The notes under the pieces are model-generated. The model was given only the letters and a program-made list of their open reading frames with translations, was not told the origin of the DNA and ran no database searches. The position numbers and the translations under genes are program-made. A stretch of 28,052 bases of DNA from a virus. The stretch is from IMG/VR virus record IMGVR_UViG_3300017782_000154, positions 1 to 28,052 of that record; one strand, 5' to 3'. Below are positions 1-14,190 of this stretch, piece by piece (position 1 is the first letter of the stretch; the number at the start of each line of letters is the position of its first letter).

Positions 1-125
1 ACATAAAGATCCCTTTCAAACGGGAATAGGTTTTCAACTTCTGTCATACTGTATTTATGATGCTGAACCAGACTAAACATCAAATGGTAATAGTTGCCTA
101 CATCATTGTGGCTCAGGCAAACGTA
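1..125 (-). CDS. Partial ORF in the -1 frame after gp26 (probable frameshift extension or gp51-position protein)
   Basis: Reading right to left from the T-run at 131-125, the frame one base back from gp26 stays open for 40 codons to the left edge, so the 3' end is missing. It has protein-like content well before its first in-frame ATG (80-78): it reads CLSHNDVGNYYHLMF and then HHKYSMTEVENLFPFERDLY. It starts inside the end of gp26 and bypasses the gp26 stop at 115-113. No Shine-Dalgarno stands before the ATGs at 80 or 47. T4 has gene 51, a baseplate hub assembly factor, right after gene 26, so this may be the counterpart. Tail assembly chaperone genes of other phages use the same -1 arrangement. 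Expression as a gp26 fusion is inference; that the stretch is coding is fairly well supported. The alternative is separate translation from ATG 80 or 47. Confidence 0.65.
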
Positions 126-131
126 AAAAAA
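94..131 (-). promoter_or_regulatory. Probable -1 programmed frameshift signal (slippery run plus stem-loop)
   Basis: On the minus strand gp26 reads GAT TTT TTT ACG TTT GCC TGA. The heptamer T-TTT-TTT (131-125) allows both tRNAs to re-pair after a -1 slip. Four bases later, TTGCCT (120-115) and AGGCAA (99-94) form a perfect 6-bp inverted repeat, with one extra G-U pair possible, around a 13-base loop that contains the gp26 stop. A weak 4-bp loop contact (AATG with CATT further downstream) could make a pseudoknot. The spacer is slightly shorter than the usual 5-9 bases. The signal is seen in sequence; its function is inferred. Confidence 0.6.
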
Positions 132-838
132 TCAAATAAACCTTTAAGCTCTCTCTCAACAACAGTACCATCTTCTCTAGTATATTCAATAGTATGTCTA
201 ATTTGAGGAGCTGCTCCTAAAAATTCTTGAATGTCTTGAAAGTTTTTGGATGTTAATGACTCTAAAAAATCATCGCGCTCTTCTTTGGTATAATCTCTCA
301 AAAAGTGAACATCAGAACCGTCAGCATTATACACAGATTCAATAGTTTCGCCTATAAGATCAAATGTAACTTTACCAAGATTAACTTCCCCTTGTTGACT
401 TGCAGTAACAGTTTCAACATTATTAAAACTAGGGTATCTTAGCTTAACTGAATAATCATCATTTAATCTAAACGAACCACTATGAGTAGTATCACTAATA
501 AGACCAACCTCATCTAAATCCACTTCAACATCATAATACTGCTCATCTTCTTCATCTTTAATCTTAAGAGAAACAATATTTTGTACACTTATAGCTCTCA
601 GTTTTAAAAATAGAAAGTCAACCTCAAATGAAGGAAGGTCTGTAATATTAATATCATTCATAACACAATTTTGAACAACTTGTTTAACACTCTCAGCAAT
701 ATGAGATAAATCATTTGCTTGTTGTCCAAACAGTAGAATCTTTTCTTCCTTAACTGTAAAGGGTCTGTATTTTAGTTTCTTTTCAGAAAACGGTAGGGTT
801 AAATTAAAAATAGGTACATCAATTTTAGGTAATGCCAT
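113..838 (-). CDS. 26: Baseplate hub assembly protein, T4 gp26 family
   Basis: 241 aa. The N-terminus (MALPKIDVPIFNLTLPFS, then KYRPFTVKEEKILL) is the recognisable start of the T4 gp26 family (Pfam T4_baseplate); T4 gp26 is slightly shorter, at about 208 aa. In T4 this protein takes part in building the central hub of the baseplate and acts in the cytoplasm during tail assembly. The start ATG is at 838-836, with a good Shine-Dalgarno (GAGGAT) just upstream. It is the last complete gene of the minus-strand operon, 34 bases after gp54. The end of the gene is unusual: the last codons run through seven consecutive T, and a -1 frame coding stretch takes over where the protein would stop, so two products (241 aa and a longer fusion) are possible. 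Family assignment is by remembered sequence pattern. Confidence 0.82.
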   Translation of the reverse strand: MALPKIDVPIFNLTLPFSEKKLKYRPFTVKEEKILLFGQQANDLSHIAESVKQVVQNCVMNDINITDLPSFEVDFLFLKLRAISVQNIVSLKIKDEEDEQYYDVEVDLDEVGLISDTTHSGSFRLNDDYSVKLRYPSFNNVETVTASQQGEVNLGKVTFDLIGETIESVYNADGSDVHFLRDYTKEERDDFLESLTSKNFQDIQEFLGAAPQIRHTIEYTREDGTVVERELKGLFDFFTFA

Positions 839-872: not shown

Positions 873-1742
873 TTATTTGTTAAACATTCCAAGTAATGTC
901 TCACCGTTATTTATAACATTAAGCGCATCACCTATGCTTCTAGGTTTTTTCAAAGACTTTGCTACCTGTACTGCCCCATTTACTTTGTTAATAAACTGAA
1001 GTAAATTAAAAGCTTTATCATCTTCTTTTGCTTCAGCTGGTTTAAATGCTGAACTTGTCCAGTGTCTGTAATTAAACTGAACTTGTAGTTCAGCTACTTC
1101 ATCATTCTGTCGCCAACCCATAGCAAGATCGCCGATAACTGCTGGATAAGCTTCCACTAGTGTATATTTGGTAATTTTACTTCCGGTTGGATCGTATACT
1201 AATATATCAATATTACATACATAATCTTCATAATATCCAACCTCACCGAGTGAGCCTCCAGTATCAGGGTCCGTTGACAGATCACCCATTTGATGAGCGA
1301 AAGATGAAATCTCCTTGGCCCAGAAATTAAAAAACTCTAATACTAGTCCATTGTTGTCCAGCATAAAGGTAGCACTCACGGCTGGAAATATAGCATTAGC
1401 TACTCTTCTTTCTAAAGGTCCAAATCCTTGTCTTTGTACATCGGAAGTTGCAAAGCTAACACCAGGTATATTTACCGCATTGCATAATAGACCAACATTT
1501 TCGACGGATTTAACATCTTCAAATCCATTAGGTTGATGTGTTATTACTAAACCAAAAAGGTTTGGTCTCATAAGACCGTTTAGACCTGAAACTCTAGCTT
1601 TAAAATCTGATATATTAAAACTTTTCGAAAACTGATCTGGGGTATCGGTTTTTTTCTTTTTACCACCAATCGCAGCATCAACCACTTTACCTAAAGGTCC
1701 AGCTTTAACTTTGCCTGGTAATTGATTAATCAAATCCTTCAT
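873..1742 (-). CDS. 54: Baseplate tail tube initiator, T4 gp54 family
   Basis: 289 aa; T4 gp54 is about 320 aa. gp54 sits on the baseplate and with gp48 starts polymerisation of the gp19 tail tube; it shares a tube-protein fold with gp19. Supporting sequence: a basic N-terminal tail (residues 1-45, including GGKKKK), then RPNLFGLVITHQPNG (about 59-73), NIPGVSF (91-97), SATFMLDNNGLVLEFFNFW (123-141) and the closing strand LQVQFNYRHW (219-228). These are the typical 'NxF / PG / F..D....F..W / V.F.Y..W' landmarks of T4-like tube-related proteins. The start overlaps the stop of the upstream 203-aa gene as TAATG, which implies translational coupling. It lies in the same operon as gp4 and gp26, on the opposite strand from its functional partner gp48. 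Confidence 0.78.
   Translation of the reverse strand: MKDLINQLPGKVKAGPLGKVVDAAIGGKKKKTDTPDQFSKSFNISDFKARVSGLNGLMRPNLFGLVITHQPNGFEDVKSVENVGLLCNAVNIPGVSFATSDVQRQGFGPLERRVANAIFPAVSATFMLDNNGLVLEFFNFWAKEISSFAHQMGDLSTDPDTGGSLGEVGYYEDYVCNIDILVYDPTGSKITKYTLVEAYPAVIGDLAMGWRQNDEVAELQVQFNYRHWTSSAFKPAEAKEDDKAFNLLQFINKVNGAVQVAKSLKKPRSIGDALNVINNGETLLGMFNK
908..915 (-). promoter_or_regulatory. Candidate late promoter inside the end of gp54, upstream of gp26
   Basis: Exact T4-type late motif TATAAATA on the minus strand, 70 bases upstream of the gp26 start. It lies inside gp54 coding sequence. In DNA this AT-rich a few exact copies are expected by chance, so only the position supports it. Confidence 0.25.
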
Positions 1743-2811: not shown

Positions 2812-3891
2812 ATGGGTATTAACATTGGTAAAATAACAAATAAAGTTGCAGCAGGAGCCGCGATAGGTGATAAGCTTGGGCTTTTTAAGAAAAAAAAGAA
2901 AGATAGAGAGGCCAAGGAGCAAGAACCGAAGCGTGCAATAGAAGAAGCTAAAAGACGCGACGAGCTTTCCCCTTTACAATTCCCATCAGATATAGGTAAG
3001 AAGTACTTCTTTATGAAGTTTAAAAAATATGATTACGGAAAATCTAACAGTGTCAACAAAGGAGAAGATCTCAAAGAAACTCTCAAGGGGTACATAATTC
3101 TTCCTTTTCCCAGGGAATTGACTGAGGAATATAATGTTGCTTATAGGGGCGCACAATTAGGATACTTTGGAGCAGGCGCCGACGCGTTGGCTAAAGTTTT
3201 GAATGATAGCGAGGAACTTGGAAACATCACTACAGATAATTTTAAAGGTCTAGTACCAAAGGCCGGTAAAGCCATAGCTGGAGCATTAACTGCCAATCTT
3301 GTACAAAAGGTAGGAAAAAAAGTTGGAGCAGGGCAGTTAGGTAAAGCTGCAGTTATATTAGGCCTTGGCGGCGCAAAATTACAGGACACTATAGGATCGC
3401 GAATAGGCGTAGTTGATAATCCTGTTGAAAGGGCAATGTTAGACGGAGTTCCTCTGAGAGATCATAGCTTTAGTTTTAAATTAGTACCTCGTAATCAAAA
3501 GGAAAATACATCTGTTGATTTAATAATTGCAGAAATTAGATCAAGAATGATGCCTTATAACTCCGGCGGTGAATTTTTCTTTCAATTCCCTGAGGTAGTT
3601 GATTTCGGGTTTAATGGATCATTTACGAAACAACCATATAAAACATCCGTTATTACATCATTAAAGGTAGATTATGCTCCTGATGGTGCTTCTTTTCATA
3701 TAAAGGATGGTGAAGCAACTGCTTATGTTTTAACTATAGGATTAAAAGAAATTCAACCAATTAGAAAAGAAGACTTCGGTAAAGTCGAAGGTGGGGCCAC
3801 TCTCGCAGACGCGGGACTTGCTGATGCACCGCCCCCGGTTCCCAATTTAAAGCCAGATCCGATACGTACCGGCGGCGCAGGTAATAGCTAA
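2812..3891 (+). CDS. 48: Baseplate tail tube cap, T4 gp48 family
   Basis: 359 aa, close to T4 gp48 (about 364 aa). gp48 binds the centre of the baseplate and with gp54 forms the platform for tail tube growth. Features: a basic, charged N-terminal segment (residues 20-50, with a run of Lys), YFFMKFKKYDYG (about 65-76), LPFPRELTEEYNVAYRG (97-113), a Gly/Ala-rich helix-prone middle, and the tube-like C-terminal part with NPVERAMLDGVPLRDHSFSF, then LVPRN, FFFQFPEVVDFGFNG, SLKVDYAPDGASFHIKDG and LTIGLKEIQPI. The C-terminal 20 residues are Pro/Ala/Gly-rich and probably flexible. The start ATG has GGTAGGA just upstream. It is the first plus-strand gene, divergent from gp4, and its stop overlaps the gp53 start (TAATG). 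No plus-strand late promoter motif was seen in the 24-bp gap. Confidence 0.83.
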   Translation: MGINIGKITNKVAAGAAIGDKLGLFKKKKKDREAKEQEPKRAIEEAKRRDELSPLQFPSDIGKKYFFMKFKKYDYGKSNSVNKGEDLKETLKGYIILPFPRELTEEYNVAYRGAQLGYFGAGADALAKVLNDSEELGNITTDNFKGLVPKAGKAIAGALTANLVQKVGKKVGAGQLGKAAVILGLGGAKLQDTIGSRIGVVDNPVERAMLDGVPLRDHSFSFKLVPRNQKENTSVDLIIAEIRSRMMPYNSGGEFFFQFPEVVDFGFNGSFTKQPYKTSVITSLKVDYAPDGASFHIKDGEATAYVLTIGLKEIQPIRKEDFGKVEGGATLADAGLADAPPPVPNLKPDPIRTGGAGNS

Positions 3892-4421
3892 TGAGATACT
3901 TCCAACAATTCCCTACTATTGAGTACAACGACCATCAAGTAAAAAATATACTTGCAAGAGTTAAACTTGCTGATGTACTTAATAATACGCAGTATACTTT
4001 CTATGACTATGAACTAGAAGATGGGCAACAACCCTGGATTGTTGCTGATCAGTACTATGGCAGTGTTGATAGAACATGGATAGTTTATTTGTCTAATAAT
4101 ATAATTGATCCTTTTTATGAGTGGTATATGGATACATATACCTTTGAGAATTATATTACTAAAAAATATGGATCTATTTCAGCTGCTAAAGCTAATCTTA
4201 TTGGATATAATGAAGTTGTTGACGGAGAAAAAACAGGAATAAAATATAGCCCGTTAAGCTATACTTACTCCACTGATAACAATAAATCAAACTGGACAGC
4301 ATTTTATTCTTATGATGAAGAGGATGAAGCCAATGAAGCACGTAGAACAATCAAACTACTAAGTAAAAAATATGCCAGTTTAGCAGAAACTAATCTAAAG
4401 GATCTATTAAATAATGGCTAG
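3891..4421 (+). CDS. 53: Baseplate wedge subunit, T4 gp53 family
   Basis: 176 aa; T4 gp53 is 196 aa. gp53 joins late in wedge assembly and helps link wedges around the hub. Matching features: an N-terminal IEYNDHQVKNILARVKLADV, then YTFYDYELEDGQ (37-48), the family core WIVADQYYGSVDRTWIVYL (49-67) and NNIIDPFYEWYMD (69-81, equivalent to the 'N...DPYYGW' of T4), and a C-terminal Lys/Glu-rich helix (KLLSKKYASLAETNLKDLL). The protein is acidic and Tyr-rich. It starts inside the gp48 stop (TAATG) and its last codons overlap the next gene by eight bases (ATGGCTAG), so it lies in a tightly coupled string with gp48 and the hub genes. Confidence 0.85.
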   Translation: MRYFQQFPTIEYNDHQVKNILARVKLADVLNNTQYTFYDYELEDGQQPWIVADQYYGSVDRTWIVYLSNNIIDPFYEWYMDTYTFENYITKKYGSISAAKANLIGYNEVVDGEKTGIKYSPLSYTYSTDNNKSNWTAFYSYDEEDEANEARRTIKLLSKKYASLAETNLKDLLNNG

Positions 4422-8816: not shown

Positions 8817-10615
8817 TGGCTGCTAACTCTGCTACATCAGTTGTAGATTTGGACTTTGAAACAATTAAGTCAAATTTAACAAACTTTCTCAAGGGACAGT
8901 CTAGTATTCAAGACTACGACTATGAAGGATCAAATATTAATGCACTCCTTGATGTGTTGAGCTATAATACATATCTTAACAATTTTTATACTAATATGAT
9001 TGCTAATGAAATGTTTCTTGATACAGCGATCATTAGAGAGAGTGTAATCTCACATGCAAAAGAGCTTAATTATCTTCCAAGATCCTCAACAGGTGCTTCT
9101 GCGCGCGTAGATATTAAAGTTTATCCTCCCGACTCGCCATCTTCTATTAATATGGACAAGTATACTAGATTTAGTAGTGTGGTTGGAGGTAAATCATATA
9201 CGTTCTCAACAGATTCAGATGTTACTATTATCGCTACTGAAGTTAATGGTGAAGCGCAATACCTTGCGTCAAATGTTAGTATCATTGAAGGCCAGGTAAT
9301 TACTGAATTCTTTACTGCAGATGGTTCAAACAATTTTAGTGTTACTCTTTCAAACAAAGAAGTTGATATATCTAATATTTCCGTAAGAGTACGTGAATCA
9401 AGCACAGTTTCAACTAATACAGAGTGGACAAAGGTAAGTACAGTATTTGGTATTAATAAAGAATCAGATATCTACTTTATTGAACCTACTGAATCGTTTA
9501 AATATAAAGTTGCTTTCGGCGATGGAACTTTTGGTCGTAGTCCTAATATTGGTAATATTATTGAGGTTACTTACAGAGCAGTAAGTGATACAGCTGCTAA
9601 TAGAGCATCTAAATTTAATTCCGCTGGCGGTGTAGGCGGTTACTCTAATGTAGTTGTTACTACAGTAACTAGTGCTGACGGCGGTAGTGAACGCGAGAGT
9701 GTTACTAGTATTAAACAGAATGCCCCTAAAGCTTTCCAAGTACAAGAAAGAGCAGTTACATCCAATGACTATGAAATAATTGCTAGACAGCATTTCCCAG
9801 AAATACAAAATATTGCAGCGTTCGGCGGACAAGACGCTAACCCTCCTAGGTTCGGTAAGGTAATTTTAGCGGTAGATCTTGTACAGGCAGATGGTGTATC
9901 GTTAGCCAAGACGCAAGAAATAGAAGAGTTTATTAACACGAGAACACCTGTTGGAGTGGATGCAATTGTTGTAGAACCTAAATTTATCTTCTTAGGTATT
10001 AAACTTACATTAACATATGATATTGGGTCATCAAAAGAATCTCCTACTACTATCTCTTCAAAAAGCAGAAGTGCTTTGCTTGAGTATGCTGTTGCAAACC
10101 TTAATGGATTTAATAAGAAATACAGAAACTCAAAAGCTTTGGCGGCGGTTGACTCGAGCGATTTAAGTATTATGGGATCTGAAACTTTATTAAAACCTTA
10201 TATAATTATACCTCAATCAGATATTCTTAGATCCTACCAAATTGAGACTATGAATGAGTTAAAAGAAGATTCAAGACTAACAGTTAATACTAATGTAAAT
10301 AATTATGAGCCAGCTATTGAATCTACACCATTTACTTATCAAGGTGACTCATCAGCAAGATTTATTGATGCTGGAAGAGGGGTATTGGCTATTGTTCGTG
10401 GTGATACATCATTTACAATTTTAAAACCAAATGCTGGTACAATTAATTACGTCACAGGTGAGATTATAATTAAACCAATTACAATTTCAGAAGCTACTGG
10501 TTCCTTAAAAATATATTTCAGACCTAAAAATAAAGATGTCATGTCTATGAAGGATACAATTCTTCAGCTGAATAGTAATGATATCGAAGTAGTTGTAAAT
10601 CAGGGTAGATTATAA
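8816..10615 (+). CDS. 6: Baseplate wedge subunit, T4 gp6 (baseplate J-like) family
   Basis: 599 aa; T4 gp6 is 660 aa. gp6 dimers form the inner ring that holds the six wedges together and drives the change from hexagon to star. Features: the N-terminal SSIQDYDYEGSNINALLDVL (about 30-49) and SYNTYLNNFYTNMIANEMFL (50-69) with ESVISHAKELNYLPRSSTGA (75-94), typical of gp6; the beta-rich signature KVAFGDGTFGRSPNIGNIIE (about 231-250), shared with baseplate J proteins; and QERAVTSNDYEIIARQHFPE (311-330). The C-terminal third carries beta-rich material ending IYFRPKNKD. It is coupled to gp25 and gp7 by TAATG overlaps, the gp25-gp6 adjacency seen across contractile systems. Confidence 0.9.
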   Translation: MAANSATSVVDLDFETIKSNLTNFLKGQSSIQDYDYEGSNINALLDVLSYNTYLNNFYTNMIANEMFLDTAIIRESVISHAKELNYLPRSSTGASARVDIKVYPPDSPSSINMDKYTRFSSVVGGKSYTFSTDSDVTIIATEVNGEAQYLASNVSIIEGQVITEFFTADGSNNFSVTLSNKEVDISNISVRVRESSTVSTNTEWTKVSTVFGINKESDIYFIEPTESFKYKVAFGDGTFGRSPNIGNIIEVTYRAVSDTAANRASKFNSAGGVGGYSNVVVTTVTSADGGSERESVTSIKQNAPKAFQVQERAVTSNDYEIIARQHFPEIQNIAAFGGQDANPPRFGKVILAVDLVQADGVSLAKTQEIEEFINTRTPVGVDAIVVEPKFIFLGIKLTLTYDIGSSKESPTTISSKSRSALLEYAVANLNGFNKKYRNSKALAAVDSSDLSIMGSETLLKPYIIIPQSDILRSYQIETMNELKEDSRLTVNTNVNNYEPAIESTPFTYQGDSSARFIDAGRGVLAIVRGDTSFTILKPNAGTINYVTGEIIIKPITISEATGSLKIYFRPKNKDVMSMKDTILQLNSNDIEVVVNQGRL

Positions 10616-13600
10616 TGAACCCTACTCCTGAATACATTAGCAATTTTATTAGAGACCAGTTTCCTGAGTTTTTTCGGGAGATTAATGGCAATATTGTTGA
10701 TTTTGTTCTTGCTTATTATGAATGGTTGGAGACAGAAGGCCAGAATACAAAAGAGCTACGCGGTCTTAAGCATGCCAGAGATATTGATTCAAGTGTAGAT
10801 AAATTTACAGAAAATTTTAAAAAGATGTTTCTTGCTGGTACTCCACTGAGTACTAAGACAGATTCTGCTTTTATTCTTAAACACGTATCTGATTTATACC
10901 AATCAAAAGGCTCATCACGTAGTATTGAGCTACTCTTAAAGATTTTATATAATCAAGAAGTCTCTGTTTTCTTACCTAGCGATAGAATTCTTAGACCTTC
11001 CAATACTAAATGGATTAAGCCACAATACATTGAGCTATCCACATCAGATAAAACTAAAGACTTTGCTGGCAAACAGATTACTGGCGGAACTACTGGTGTA
11101 AGTGCTTTTTGTGAATCAGTAATCCAAAAATCAGTAAATAATAAAAAAATTACTATTGCTTATATTACAGGTGCGACAGGAAGCTTTTCTACTGGCGAAA
11201 TAATTACTAGCGATGGTTTCCTTGATGGTGCACCAATTATGGTTGGCTCATTAAGTAATATTGAATTAGTTTCTGGTGGGCAAGATTTTAAAATTGGTGA
11301 TATATTTGATATTGAGAGCCAAACCGGTCGCGGCGGTCAGGCTAAAGTTACTGAAGTAGAGAATCTTGCTGGTAGAGTTAACTTCCAGCTTTCAAACGGC
11401 GGGTATGGATTTACAGTATCAAATGTTTATACGGAATCATTATCGTCAAACACTACGCTTATTGTAAATACAATTAATAATGTTAATTCTGATATCGAAA
11501 GCTTCTTTAGCTTTGAGAATGTCACGCAACCTATTCAATCAATTAATATTGTTGGCTTGGGTTCTAATGGTGCTGCAAAAGAAGCCAATATTTCTAGCTT
11601 TTTTGTACATGCTACCAATGCAAGTTTTGTAAACAGCTTCTCTGTAGATTCAGGTGGTTCTAATTATAATAATACAGATATTATTGAATTTACTACAGGT
11701 AATGCTGCTGCTAGTATTATTACTAATGGAAATGGGTCTATAACCTCTATTAATGTTACTAATAATGGATCTAACTATATTGATCCGCCTCGTTTTGAGA
11801 TAGTAACTGCAAATGGAGCAGGTGCTAATGTTTCAATCGTTATGGGTAATGACAACTTTATTCAAGGTGCTAACTCAACATCTGCTAATGCAGCAACTGG
11901 TTACGTGGTAGCAAACAGTATTACTGCTAATTCTACTGATGCTACTGGTAATCTAACAGTTATTACAACCAGCGGTAACTTTGATGATGCCGCATATATT
12001 CATTCTGGTACTGTTTCAGAGAATGTACTATCTTCCGGGGTTGCAAACATTGAAACAACTGGCAGATTCATCGGCACTGTTGTTAATACTGCTAGCAATA
12101 TTGTTCGATTAGGTATTGATAGCAATACTAATATATTTTACGCAGGTCCAGGTACCTTTATCAAGGGTGTTGATAGTAATACCTTTGCTAATGTTACTAT
12201 AAGAGGGAGTTATACTTCCGGAGCTGATTTTGAAATTGGTGGTATTGGGTTACAAGAGAGCCTTACATTCTATAATGATATTATTGGTGGCAATAATACT
12301 CAGAATGTTGTATATACTGATGTAACAGTTGAAGGTAGAAATGCCAATATTGGGCTAGTAGAATCAATTACAATTGATACCGAACTGAGTATTACAGGTT
12401 TAAGTAATGTAGTATACCATTCACATCATTCAAATGGTGGTTTCTCTAATGGTGATTACATATACAGTGCTAATGTATACGTGAATTCAATCTTTATCGC
12501 GGCCGCAGGTACTGCATATGATAACAATGATACTGTATCCATTTCAGGTAATGCTACTGCTTCACTCCTAACAACTAATACAGGTGCGATTGCAGCGTTA
12601 GATATTACTTCATCTGGTGCTGGTTATAGTGGGCAAGCAACAATAACAATCTCTACATCCACTGGCTCAGGCGCTAATGTTTATGCAATTATGGGTGCTA
12701 GTGGTGTTGGAGCTCAAGCTTATATTGAATCGCAAAATGCTACTGATATAACAATCTTTGATGAGGCCAATGGTACATTTAGTTCACCTAATATTATCAC
12801 TAATGGTGGTGTTAACGCTTTTGCTACAGTCGCTGCTACAAATAGTTTAGGAGGATCTGGATATGATTCTACTGATACAATCACAATATCTGGTGGCGGC
12901 GGCGCAGGTGCAACGGCTACTTTAAACGTGCAGAGTAATGTTATCACTTCAGTTAATATTACAAATCCAGGATCAGGGTATGATACACCTCCAACGTTTA
13001 CTATTACTGCCGGAAACGGATCTGGGGCAAATTTAACTATTAATATGGATTACGGTATAGGATTGCCAGCATCACCCTCTGCTGATGATACTACTATTAT
13101 ATCTGACGCACTTAGTTTCTTTACTGCAAATATTGGTGAGGTTATTTCCTTTTCTGGTATTAATCCTGGTGCTGGTTATTCACTTGCTCCTGTACCGGTT
13201 ATTAGAAATCCTTACGTAGCGGCCTTTAATAGACGTGATTTTATAGCAAGAACCGATGGCCTTGTAGGATTCTATCAGGTAGGCGAAAGACTTGCTCAGA
13301 ACGTGGATCTCCCAGGGTATGATATAAGCATTGGTAGTATTAGTAATACTACGGCTGTTGTTGTTGGTGAAGGTGTTCGTCAAAACGGAACAGAAGCTTC
13401 TGGTATAGTAGAATCTATTAATGCAACTATGCTTAACTTAAAAAATACTGTAGGTACGTTTAATGACGCAAATGATGTAATTACATTATCTACTAATGCA
13501 GTTATAACACCTGCTTCAAGTGGTGTGGCTCAAAGTAATGGAATAAGTATAGCATCAGGTACTCTAAAATCAATAGAAAATAACGGTGATGGGACTTTTA

Positions 13601-14190
13601 ATTTAAAAATTAGAAGACTTAGCTTCGGTCAATCCTTTATACCAGATGCTACTTTAACTGGCGCTTCTTCTGGAGCAATTTCTAATATAACTCATATAAC
13701 TCAAGACCCCGATTCACTTCCAATTGGATTTAATGCCGTAGTATCGGCCAATGTTCAAACTGCAAACGGAGTCGCCACAGGTGTAGAGATTATTAATTCA
13801 GGATATGGATATGAAAAAGATACTATTGTTAATCTAGTATCAACTAACTCAGCATTTATATCAACGGGGATTGCTTCTATTGATAAACAAGGTACTGGTC
13901 CAGGTAGATGGATTTCAAGTGAATCGTTCTTAAATGATTCTGCCAGAATACAGGACAGTGATTATTACCAGGAGTATTCTTATTCAGTACAGACGGGATC
14001 AGCATTAGATAAATACTCCGGTATACTAAAAGATATGTTACACGTTGCCGGGTTTAAACTATTCGGTGAAGTTATAAATACAAAAGAGATATTTGCACTC
14101 AATGTTGGTATTGATGAGGAAAACCACTTTTCTAATGTGAATCATCACCATGTTTCAATTGCAAATAACTATCAGAGTTGGATGAATTAA
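10615..14190 (+). CDS. 7: Baseplate wedge protein, gp7-like, with long beta-repeat insertion
   Basis: 1191 aa. T4 gp7 (1032 aa) starts wedge assembly with gp10 and runs from the core to the rim. Residues 1-125 (FIRDQFPEFFREINGNIVDF, then YYEWLE, LYQSKGSSRSIELLLKILYN, EVSVFLPSDRI) match the helical domain that in T4 lies in the C-terminal third of gp7 ('FYSTKGIEASYKFLFKVLYN'). The T4 N-terminal part is not present here. Residues 130-1060 are Asn/Thr/Gly/Ser-rich beta sequence with at least three copies of a roughly 70-residue module (340-410, 624-693, 743-811). Residues 1090-1191 return to conserved phage sequence (GRWISSESFLNDSARIQDSD, then YYQEYSYSV, FKLFGEV, NHHHVSI). Coupled to gp6 and gp8 by TAATG. 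Placement between gp6 and gp8 supports gp7; the large middle could reach the fibre attachment zone. Confidence 0.75.
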   Translation: MNPTPEYISNFIRDQFPEFFREINGNIVDFVLAYYEWLETEGQNTKELRGLKHARDIDSSVDKFTENFKKMFLAGTPLSTKTDSAFILKHVSDLYQSKGSSRSIELLLKILYNQEVSVFLPSDRILRPSNTKWIKPQYIELSTSDKTKDFAGKQITGGTTGVSAFCESVIQKSVNNKKITIAYITGATGSFSTGEIITSDGFLDGAPIMVGSLSNIELVSGGQDFKIGDIFDIESQTGRGGQAKVTEVENLAGRVNFQLSNGGYGFTVSNVYTESLSSNTTLIVNTINNVNSDIESFFSFENVTQPIQSINIVGLGSNGAAKEANISSFFVHATNASFVNSFSVDSGGSNYNNTDIIEFTTGNAAASIITNGNGSITSINVTNNGSNYIDPPRFEIVTANGAGANVSIVMGNDNFIQGANSTSANAATGYVVANSITANSTDATGNLTVITTSGNFDDAAYIHSGTVSENVLSSGVANIETTGRFIGTVVNTASNIVRLGIDSNTNIFYAGPGTFIKGVDSNTFANVTIRGSYTSGADFEIGGIGLQESLTFYNDIIGGNNTQNVVYTDVTVEGRNANIGLVESITIDTELSITGLSNVVYHSHHSNGGFSNGDYIYSANVYVNSIFIAAAGTAYDNNDTVSISGNATASLLTTNTGAIAALDITSSGAGYSGQATITISTSTGSGANVYAIMGASGVGAQAYIESQNATDITIFDEANGTFSSPNIITNGGVNAFATVAATNSLGGSGYDSTDTITISGGGGAGATATLNVQSNVITSVNITNPGSGYDTPPTFTITAGNGSGANLTINMDYGIGLPASPSADDTTIISDALSFFTANIGEVISFSGINPGAGYSLAPVPVIRNPYVAAFNRRDFIARTDGLVGFYQVGERLAQNVDLPGYDISIGSISNTTAVVVGEGVRQNGTEASGIVESINATMLNLKNTVGTFNDANDVITLSTNAVITPASSGVAQSNGISIASGTLKSIENNGDGTFNLKIRRLSFGQSFIPDATLTGASSGAISNITHITQDPDSLPIGFNAVVSANVQTANGVATGVEIINSGYGYEKDTIVNLVSTNSAFISTGIASIDKQGTGPGRWISSESFLNDSARIQDSDYYQEYSYSVQTGSALDKYSGILKDMLHVAGFKLFGEVINTKEIFALNVGIDEENHFSNVNHHHVSIANNYQSWMN
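11632..11844 (+). repeat. Beta-repeat module, copy 1 in gp7
   Basis: Encodes residues 340-410: 'GGSNYNNTDIIEFT', an Asn/Gly turn, 'ITSINVTNNGSNYIDPPRF', then 'GAGANVSIVMG'. Same order of elements as copies 2 and 3 and the gp8 copy. Confidence 0.6.
12484..12693 (+). repeat. Beta-repeat module, copy 2 in gp7
   Basis: Encodes residues 624-693: 'GTAYDNNDTVSISG', then 'AALDITSSGAGYSGQATITI' and 'GSGANVYAIMG'. The two half-motifs are in the same order as in copy 1. Confidence 0.65.
12841..13047 (+). repeat. Beta-repeat module, copy 3 in gp7
   Basis: Encodes residues 743-811: 'GGSGYDSTDTITISGGGGAG', then 'ITSVNITNPGSGYDTPPTFT' and 'GNGSGANLTINM'. The best-formed copy; partial echoes follow near residues 846-863 and 1056-1074. 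Confidence 0.65.
14073..14080 (+). promoter_or_regulatory. Candidate late promoter inside the end of gp7, upstream of gp8
   Basis: Exact TATAAATA about 110 bases before the gp8 start, but inside conserved gp7 coding sequence (…EVINTKE…). Chance matches are likely at this base composition. Confidence 0.2.

Follow-up and report, generated by a model that had tools for sequence, protein, structure and literature searches.

Near one end of a 28,052-nt stretch of viral DNA (IMG/VR record IMGVR_UViG_3300017782_000154, positions 1 to 28,052; the whole stretch is called the window here) lies a locus that very probably encodes the tail assembly chaperones of a T4-related myophage, and in which a short and a long protein would be made by programmed −1 ribosomal frameshifting from gp26 into gp51. 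According to this model, most ribosomes would read gp26 to its TGA codon and produce the short form (TAC-N). A minority would pause at a downstream RNA structure with two tRNA-Phe on T TTT TTT. Both tRNAs would then slip back by one base together, the TGA would be passed and the gp51 frame read, and the product would be a single long protein, gp26-gp51 (TAC-NC). Short and long form, made in a fixed ratio, would then cover the tape-measure protein and assist polymerisation of the tail tube. The slip signal, its register, the selection on the −1 frame, the missing gp51 start and the excess of RNA structure are seen in the sequence; what we infer is that slippage takes place, how efficient it is and that the proteins act as chaperones in this phage.

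On the minus strand, the 3′ end of gp26 in the window is TTT GAT TTT TTT ACG TTT GCC TGA. An earlier note on this DNA had described the gene as ending in seven T read T-TTT-TTT, and the run is indeed found at 131-125, read (GA)T TTT TTT. It is followed by the four bases ACGT (124-121) and by TTGCCT, the first arm of the 6-bp stem TTGCCT/AGGCAA that the note had placed around the gp26 stop and that is present at 120-115/99-94. Immediately 5′ of the T-run the −1 frame has a TGA (134-132), and the gp51 frame can therefore not be opened by a start further upstream. Past the run, the −1 frame reads to the contig end as FFYVCLSHNDVGNYYHLMFSLVQHHKYSMTEVENLFPFERDLY. Its protein-like character up to the window edge, also claimed from the letters alone, was borne out by its match to phrog_634, a family labelled 'baseplate hub assembly catalyst', that is, gp51. 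In L002, an 89% identical relative, the extension is complete at about 58 codons past the slip and matches phrog_634 at 2.8e-22. The predicted peptide across the gp26-gp51 junction is GLFDFFYVCLSHNDVGNYYH. The proposed fusion of gp26 with the gene 51 product is thus supported, since the −1 frame is gp51 and the conceptual fusion is collinear with T4 gp51.

Features of the predicted frameshift locus in the window (positions of the window; − is the minus strand)
Feature	Position	Strand	Basis
−1 frame extension, gp51 (C-domain of predicted TAC-NC), cut by contig end	3..125	−	phrog_634 2.9e-16
First possible gp51-frame starts, TTG 83-81 and ATG 80-78; judged not the real start	78..83	−	sequence; without ribosome-binding site
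Stem-loop TTGCCT (120-115)/AGGCAA (99-94) around gp26 stop, probable stimulatory element	94..120	−	pairing in six relatives; family-wide excess of structure
gp26 (predicted TAC-N, short tail assembly chaperone), 241 aa	113..838	−	PF12322 T4_baseplate 1.3e-48; phrog_150 baseplate hub 1.1e-54
gp26 stop codon TGA, bypassed by predicted −1 shift	113..115	−	sequence
Slippery heptamer T TTT TTT, zero frame GAT|TTT|TTT|ACG	125..131	−	sequence; T_TTT_TTY in register in 170/170 distinct relatives
TGA of −1 frame, directly 5′ of slippery run	132..134	−	sequence, ORF listing
Tail tube protein; precedes gp26, an order shared with other chaperone loci	873..1742	−	phrog_45 4.5e-31

To compare the locus among relatives, viral contigs were scanned with gp26 of the window, S-PM2 and phiM12, and reference phages were added. 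The set comprised 238 loci with gp26 and gp51, 170 of them distinct over 120 bases; T4-type loci, which have another arrangement, and six loci that duplicated the window or had no readable gp51 were left out. The heptamer was no criterion for choosing loci; the gp51 profile, however, was trained on sequences beginning at FF. In all counts that follow, related phages are partly dependent observations. gp51 lay in the −1 frame relative to gp26 in 238/238 loci (170/170 distinct). The heptamer was present in the zero-frame register in all 170, as T_TTT_TTT in 69 and as T_TTT_TTC in 101; the end of the gp26 stop follows 3-27 bases later. At the 39,284 other in-frame positions of the same genes, T_TTT_TT sites occurred only 11 times. 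The codon 5′ of the Phe pair encodes Ser, Asp, Asn, Thr, Ala, Gly or His, yet its third base is T in 170/170; with the codon usage of these genes, this would occur by chance with a probability of about 10^-45 for fully independent loci, which these are not. TTT encodes the first Phe of the pair in 170/170, compared with 69% elsewhere in these genes (TTC 31%). The T-run, whose conservation the earlier note had suggested checking, is therefore kept in all 170 loci with gp51 in a separate frame, and it is lost only in T4-type phages, which carry a pre-fused second copy.

Variants of the site were seen in single phages. A gp51-like −1 frame follows gp26 in Salmonella phage Vi01 (near 2607, unannotated; GAA ATT TTC ATT TAA) and in Vibrio phage K444 (near 2523; ACG CTT TTT GCG TAA), both without the canonical heptamer; these phages either use a different slip site or express gp51 by another route. 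In Rhizobium phage RHph_Y68 (near 2493), T_TTT_TTG replaces T_TTT_TTY, the gp26 C-terminus is DDFLH and the −1 frame goes on as gp51.

Database entries treat gp51 as an independent gene, and many relatives have TAATG or a similar sequence at the gp26 stop. gp51 might then be a separate small protein, made by termination and reinitiation at a start that overlaps or follows this stop. We consider this very improbable. In 79 of the 170 loci, the window included, no ATG, GTG or TTG occurs from the −1 stop upstream of the run to the conserved core of gp51. The remaining 91 have a start near the gp26 stop; only one of them has a Shine-Dalgarno-like motif, as against 130 of 167 gp26 starts, and the other 90 lack a ribosome-binding site because the T-run sits just upstream. 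A start of its own for gp51, which the earlier note had named as something to look for in relatives, is thus not conserved, while the T-run is. The note's statement that at least 36 codons precede the first usable start was wrong for the window, where TTG and ATG come 14-15 codons past the slip; initiation at either would drop the conserved LSHNDVGNYYH part of gp51.

Constraint on the protein, too, begins directly past the slip site. For 66 independent pairs, the pN/pS ratio of the −1 frame was 0.12 over 36 codons past the slip. In 26 pairs of which neither member has any start, it was 0.18 over the first 15 codons; the other frames of the same region gave 1.1-2.3. Between the window and L002, the −1 frame differs by 4 synonymous and 0 nonsynonymous changes in 36 codons. 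These sequence comparisons, of the kind the earlier note had called for, indicate that the −1 frame is under purifying selection as soon as the slip site is passed, its first 15 codons included. Alongside frameshifting, coupled reinitiation could add free gp51 in about half of the relatives, namely those with ATG, GTG or TTG near the gp26 stop.

A homopolymer run may also make RNA polymerase slip, and the shift would then arise in transcription. That is still less probable than a separate gp51. In 101 of the 170 loci the run is just six T and then a C, and it never exceeds eight T. Moreover, T_TTT_TTY keeps the same codon register throughout, a requirement of tandem tRNA slippage but not of slippage in transcription. 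Sequencing errors classically produce apparent frame breaks at homopolymers. That such an error, or a disabling mutation, split one gene is nevertheless refuted: the same break occurs in 170 distinct sequences obtained in many separate studies, and also in isolates such as S-PM2, P-SSM2 and phiM12, and we give this reading practically no weight.

The preferred reading, ribosomal frameshifting, includes a downstream RNA structure. By energy alone, the 6-bp stem of the window is not unusual (z about −1.0 to −1.4 against shuffles), and against synonymous replacements of the −1 protein the window by itself gave a z of −1.84. In the six nearest sequences the stem is paired in 85% of cells, compared with 20-42% for slid controls; it includes one compensatory pair and reaches 11 bp in L009. 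Letter shuffling among these six reached the same pairing in 83 of 500 trials, and with so few sequences chance is not excluded. Over the family, folding of the 74 bases past the slip was more stable than in sequences in which the −1 protein had been recoded synonymously (mean z −2.22), while the next 78 bases, under the same control, gave a mean z of −0.22. Against dinucleotide shuffles, a 70-base stretch gave −2.56 and control stretches within gp26 −0.1 to −0.2. No stem common to the whole family was found; the structures vary by clade, the stem of the window occurs only in its closest six sequences, and S-PM2 has a long hairpin downstream of the slip site. Given the excess over both kinds of control, downstream structure appears to be selected across the family, with a form that differs between clades. 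No Rfam match or tRNA was found in the window.

The T4-type phages offer a comparison with another arrangement. T4 gp51 (249 aa) matches both phrog_150 and phrog_634 and is collinear, across the junction, with a profile of the conceptual gp26-gp51 fusion. T4 gp26 aligns with the short form; its end, GAG TTC TTT GAG, has kept FF and lost the slippery run. PF12322 copies were counted in T4, four T4-type phages and eleven other records, the window being a 28-kb fragment outside this count. T4 and the four T4-type phages have two copies; the eleven others, ten of slippery-run lineages and Vi01 with no canonical run, have one. A single copy with the run, as against two copies in T4-type phages, together with the collinearity of the fusion with T4 gp51, argues for a tail assembly chaperone pair, TAC-N/TAC-NC. 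Such a distribution agrees with a history in which most lineages have a single frameshifted gene and the T4 lineage underwent duplication with fusion, a direction of change that we infer.

The surroundings of the locus were also compared. In phiM12, HTVC008M and Cr30 the order is tail tube (or its position), gp26, gp51, a small ORF and the tape measure, which is annotated or family-matched and lies one small ORF past gp51. The window ends within gp51, and its downstream side is therefore missing. In L002 two ORFs separate gp51 from a long ORF that has no PHROG match: one is endolysin/peptidase-like (3887-4351; phrog_894, 1.9e-42) and the other encodes 107 aa. The first of these two stands between gp51 and the presumed tape-measure gene. 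gp51 is unannotated in Agrobacterium phage Atu_ph04 and Synechococcus phage ACG-2014d, and in HTVC008M (3753-3890) it is annotated from a start about 50 bases past the gp26 stop, whereby the conserved first part is lost. Elsewhere in the window, positions 10615-14190 encode a baseplate wedge-like protein of 1191 aa (phrog_17744). Its C-terminal part has matches in several virion structural families as well, which suggests that the protein has extra domains. The predicted structure of gp26 had a pLDDT of 91.9, and its best viral fold matches were gp26-type baseplate hub proteins. A fold search of the PDB with this model gave no significant match, to a chaperone or otherwise, and a sequence search against solved structures gave nothing.

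Frameshifting of phage tail chaperones is established (Xu, Hendrix & Duda 2004, as cited in PMC10885494), and the analogy that the earlier note drew with the short and long chaperones was right, in agreement with the locus order and with the N-domain that the predicted short and long forms share. As in lambda G/GT, a −1 frameshift would make the pair. Profile library searches of the window gave no match to a lambda-type chaperone family, and the locus differs from lambda G/GT and other phage chaperones in its slippery sequence, T_TTT_TTY, with no similar solved fold found. The note had also spoken of a switch in baseplate assembly. The predicted shift is better described as the making of two chaperone forms in a fixed ratio beside the tape-measure gene. 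T4 gp51 is required for assembly and absent from the particle (PMC3004832).

Contrary to what the note had suggested, the phenomenon is not unreported. According to the passages that cite their work (PMC10885494, PMC12846349), the chaperone genes gp26/gp51 of T4-like phages were identified by Vladimirov, Gautam & Davidson 2022 (Virology 566:9-15); they belong to the same families as those of the window (PF12322, phrog_150, phrog_634). In PMC12846349 that study is the reference for slippery poly-T sequences in the TAC-N genes of T4-like phages, and PMC10885494 describes some T4-like phages with a short gene and a fused long gene in place of frameshifting. T4 itself has two such genes (short gp26, fused gp51) and no slippery run, whereas a frameshift is predicted in the window. 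In the literature on gp26/gp51 frameshifting we found no report besides that of Vladimirov et al. 2022, known here through its citations. The locus of Vandenendeviridae and Andersonviridae (phage Adele, PMC12846349) likewise has a conserved −1 frameshift at poly-T with a routinely misannotated second part; these are other phage families than that of the window, the conserved motif is GTTTTT, and the available part of that paper mentions no test of downstream RNA structure. The window locus is therefore very probably a further case of recognised chaperone frameshifting, by a mechanism already known in phages.

The RNA-structure part of frameshifting in T4-related chaperones may be undescribed so far. 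We see about an even chance that a selected, architecturally variable RNA structure downstream tunes this frameshift and that, in addition, the T4 lineage exchanged frameshifting for gene duplication and fusion, with single-copy phages keeping the run and two-copy phages having lost it. In cyanophages, pelagiphages and related phages, the gene that many genomes list as 'gp51, baseplate hub assembly catalyst' is very probably no independent gene but the last part of a fused chaperone; its annotations pick differing starts or miss it. Frameshifting in some lineages and duplicated genes in others provide a clean natural comparison of how two forms of one protein are made in a set ratio.
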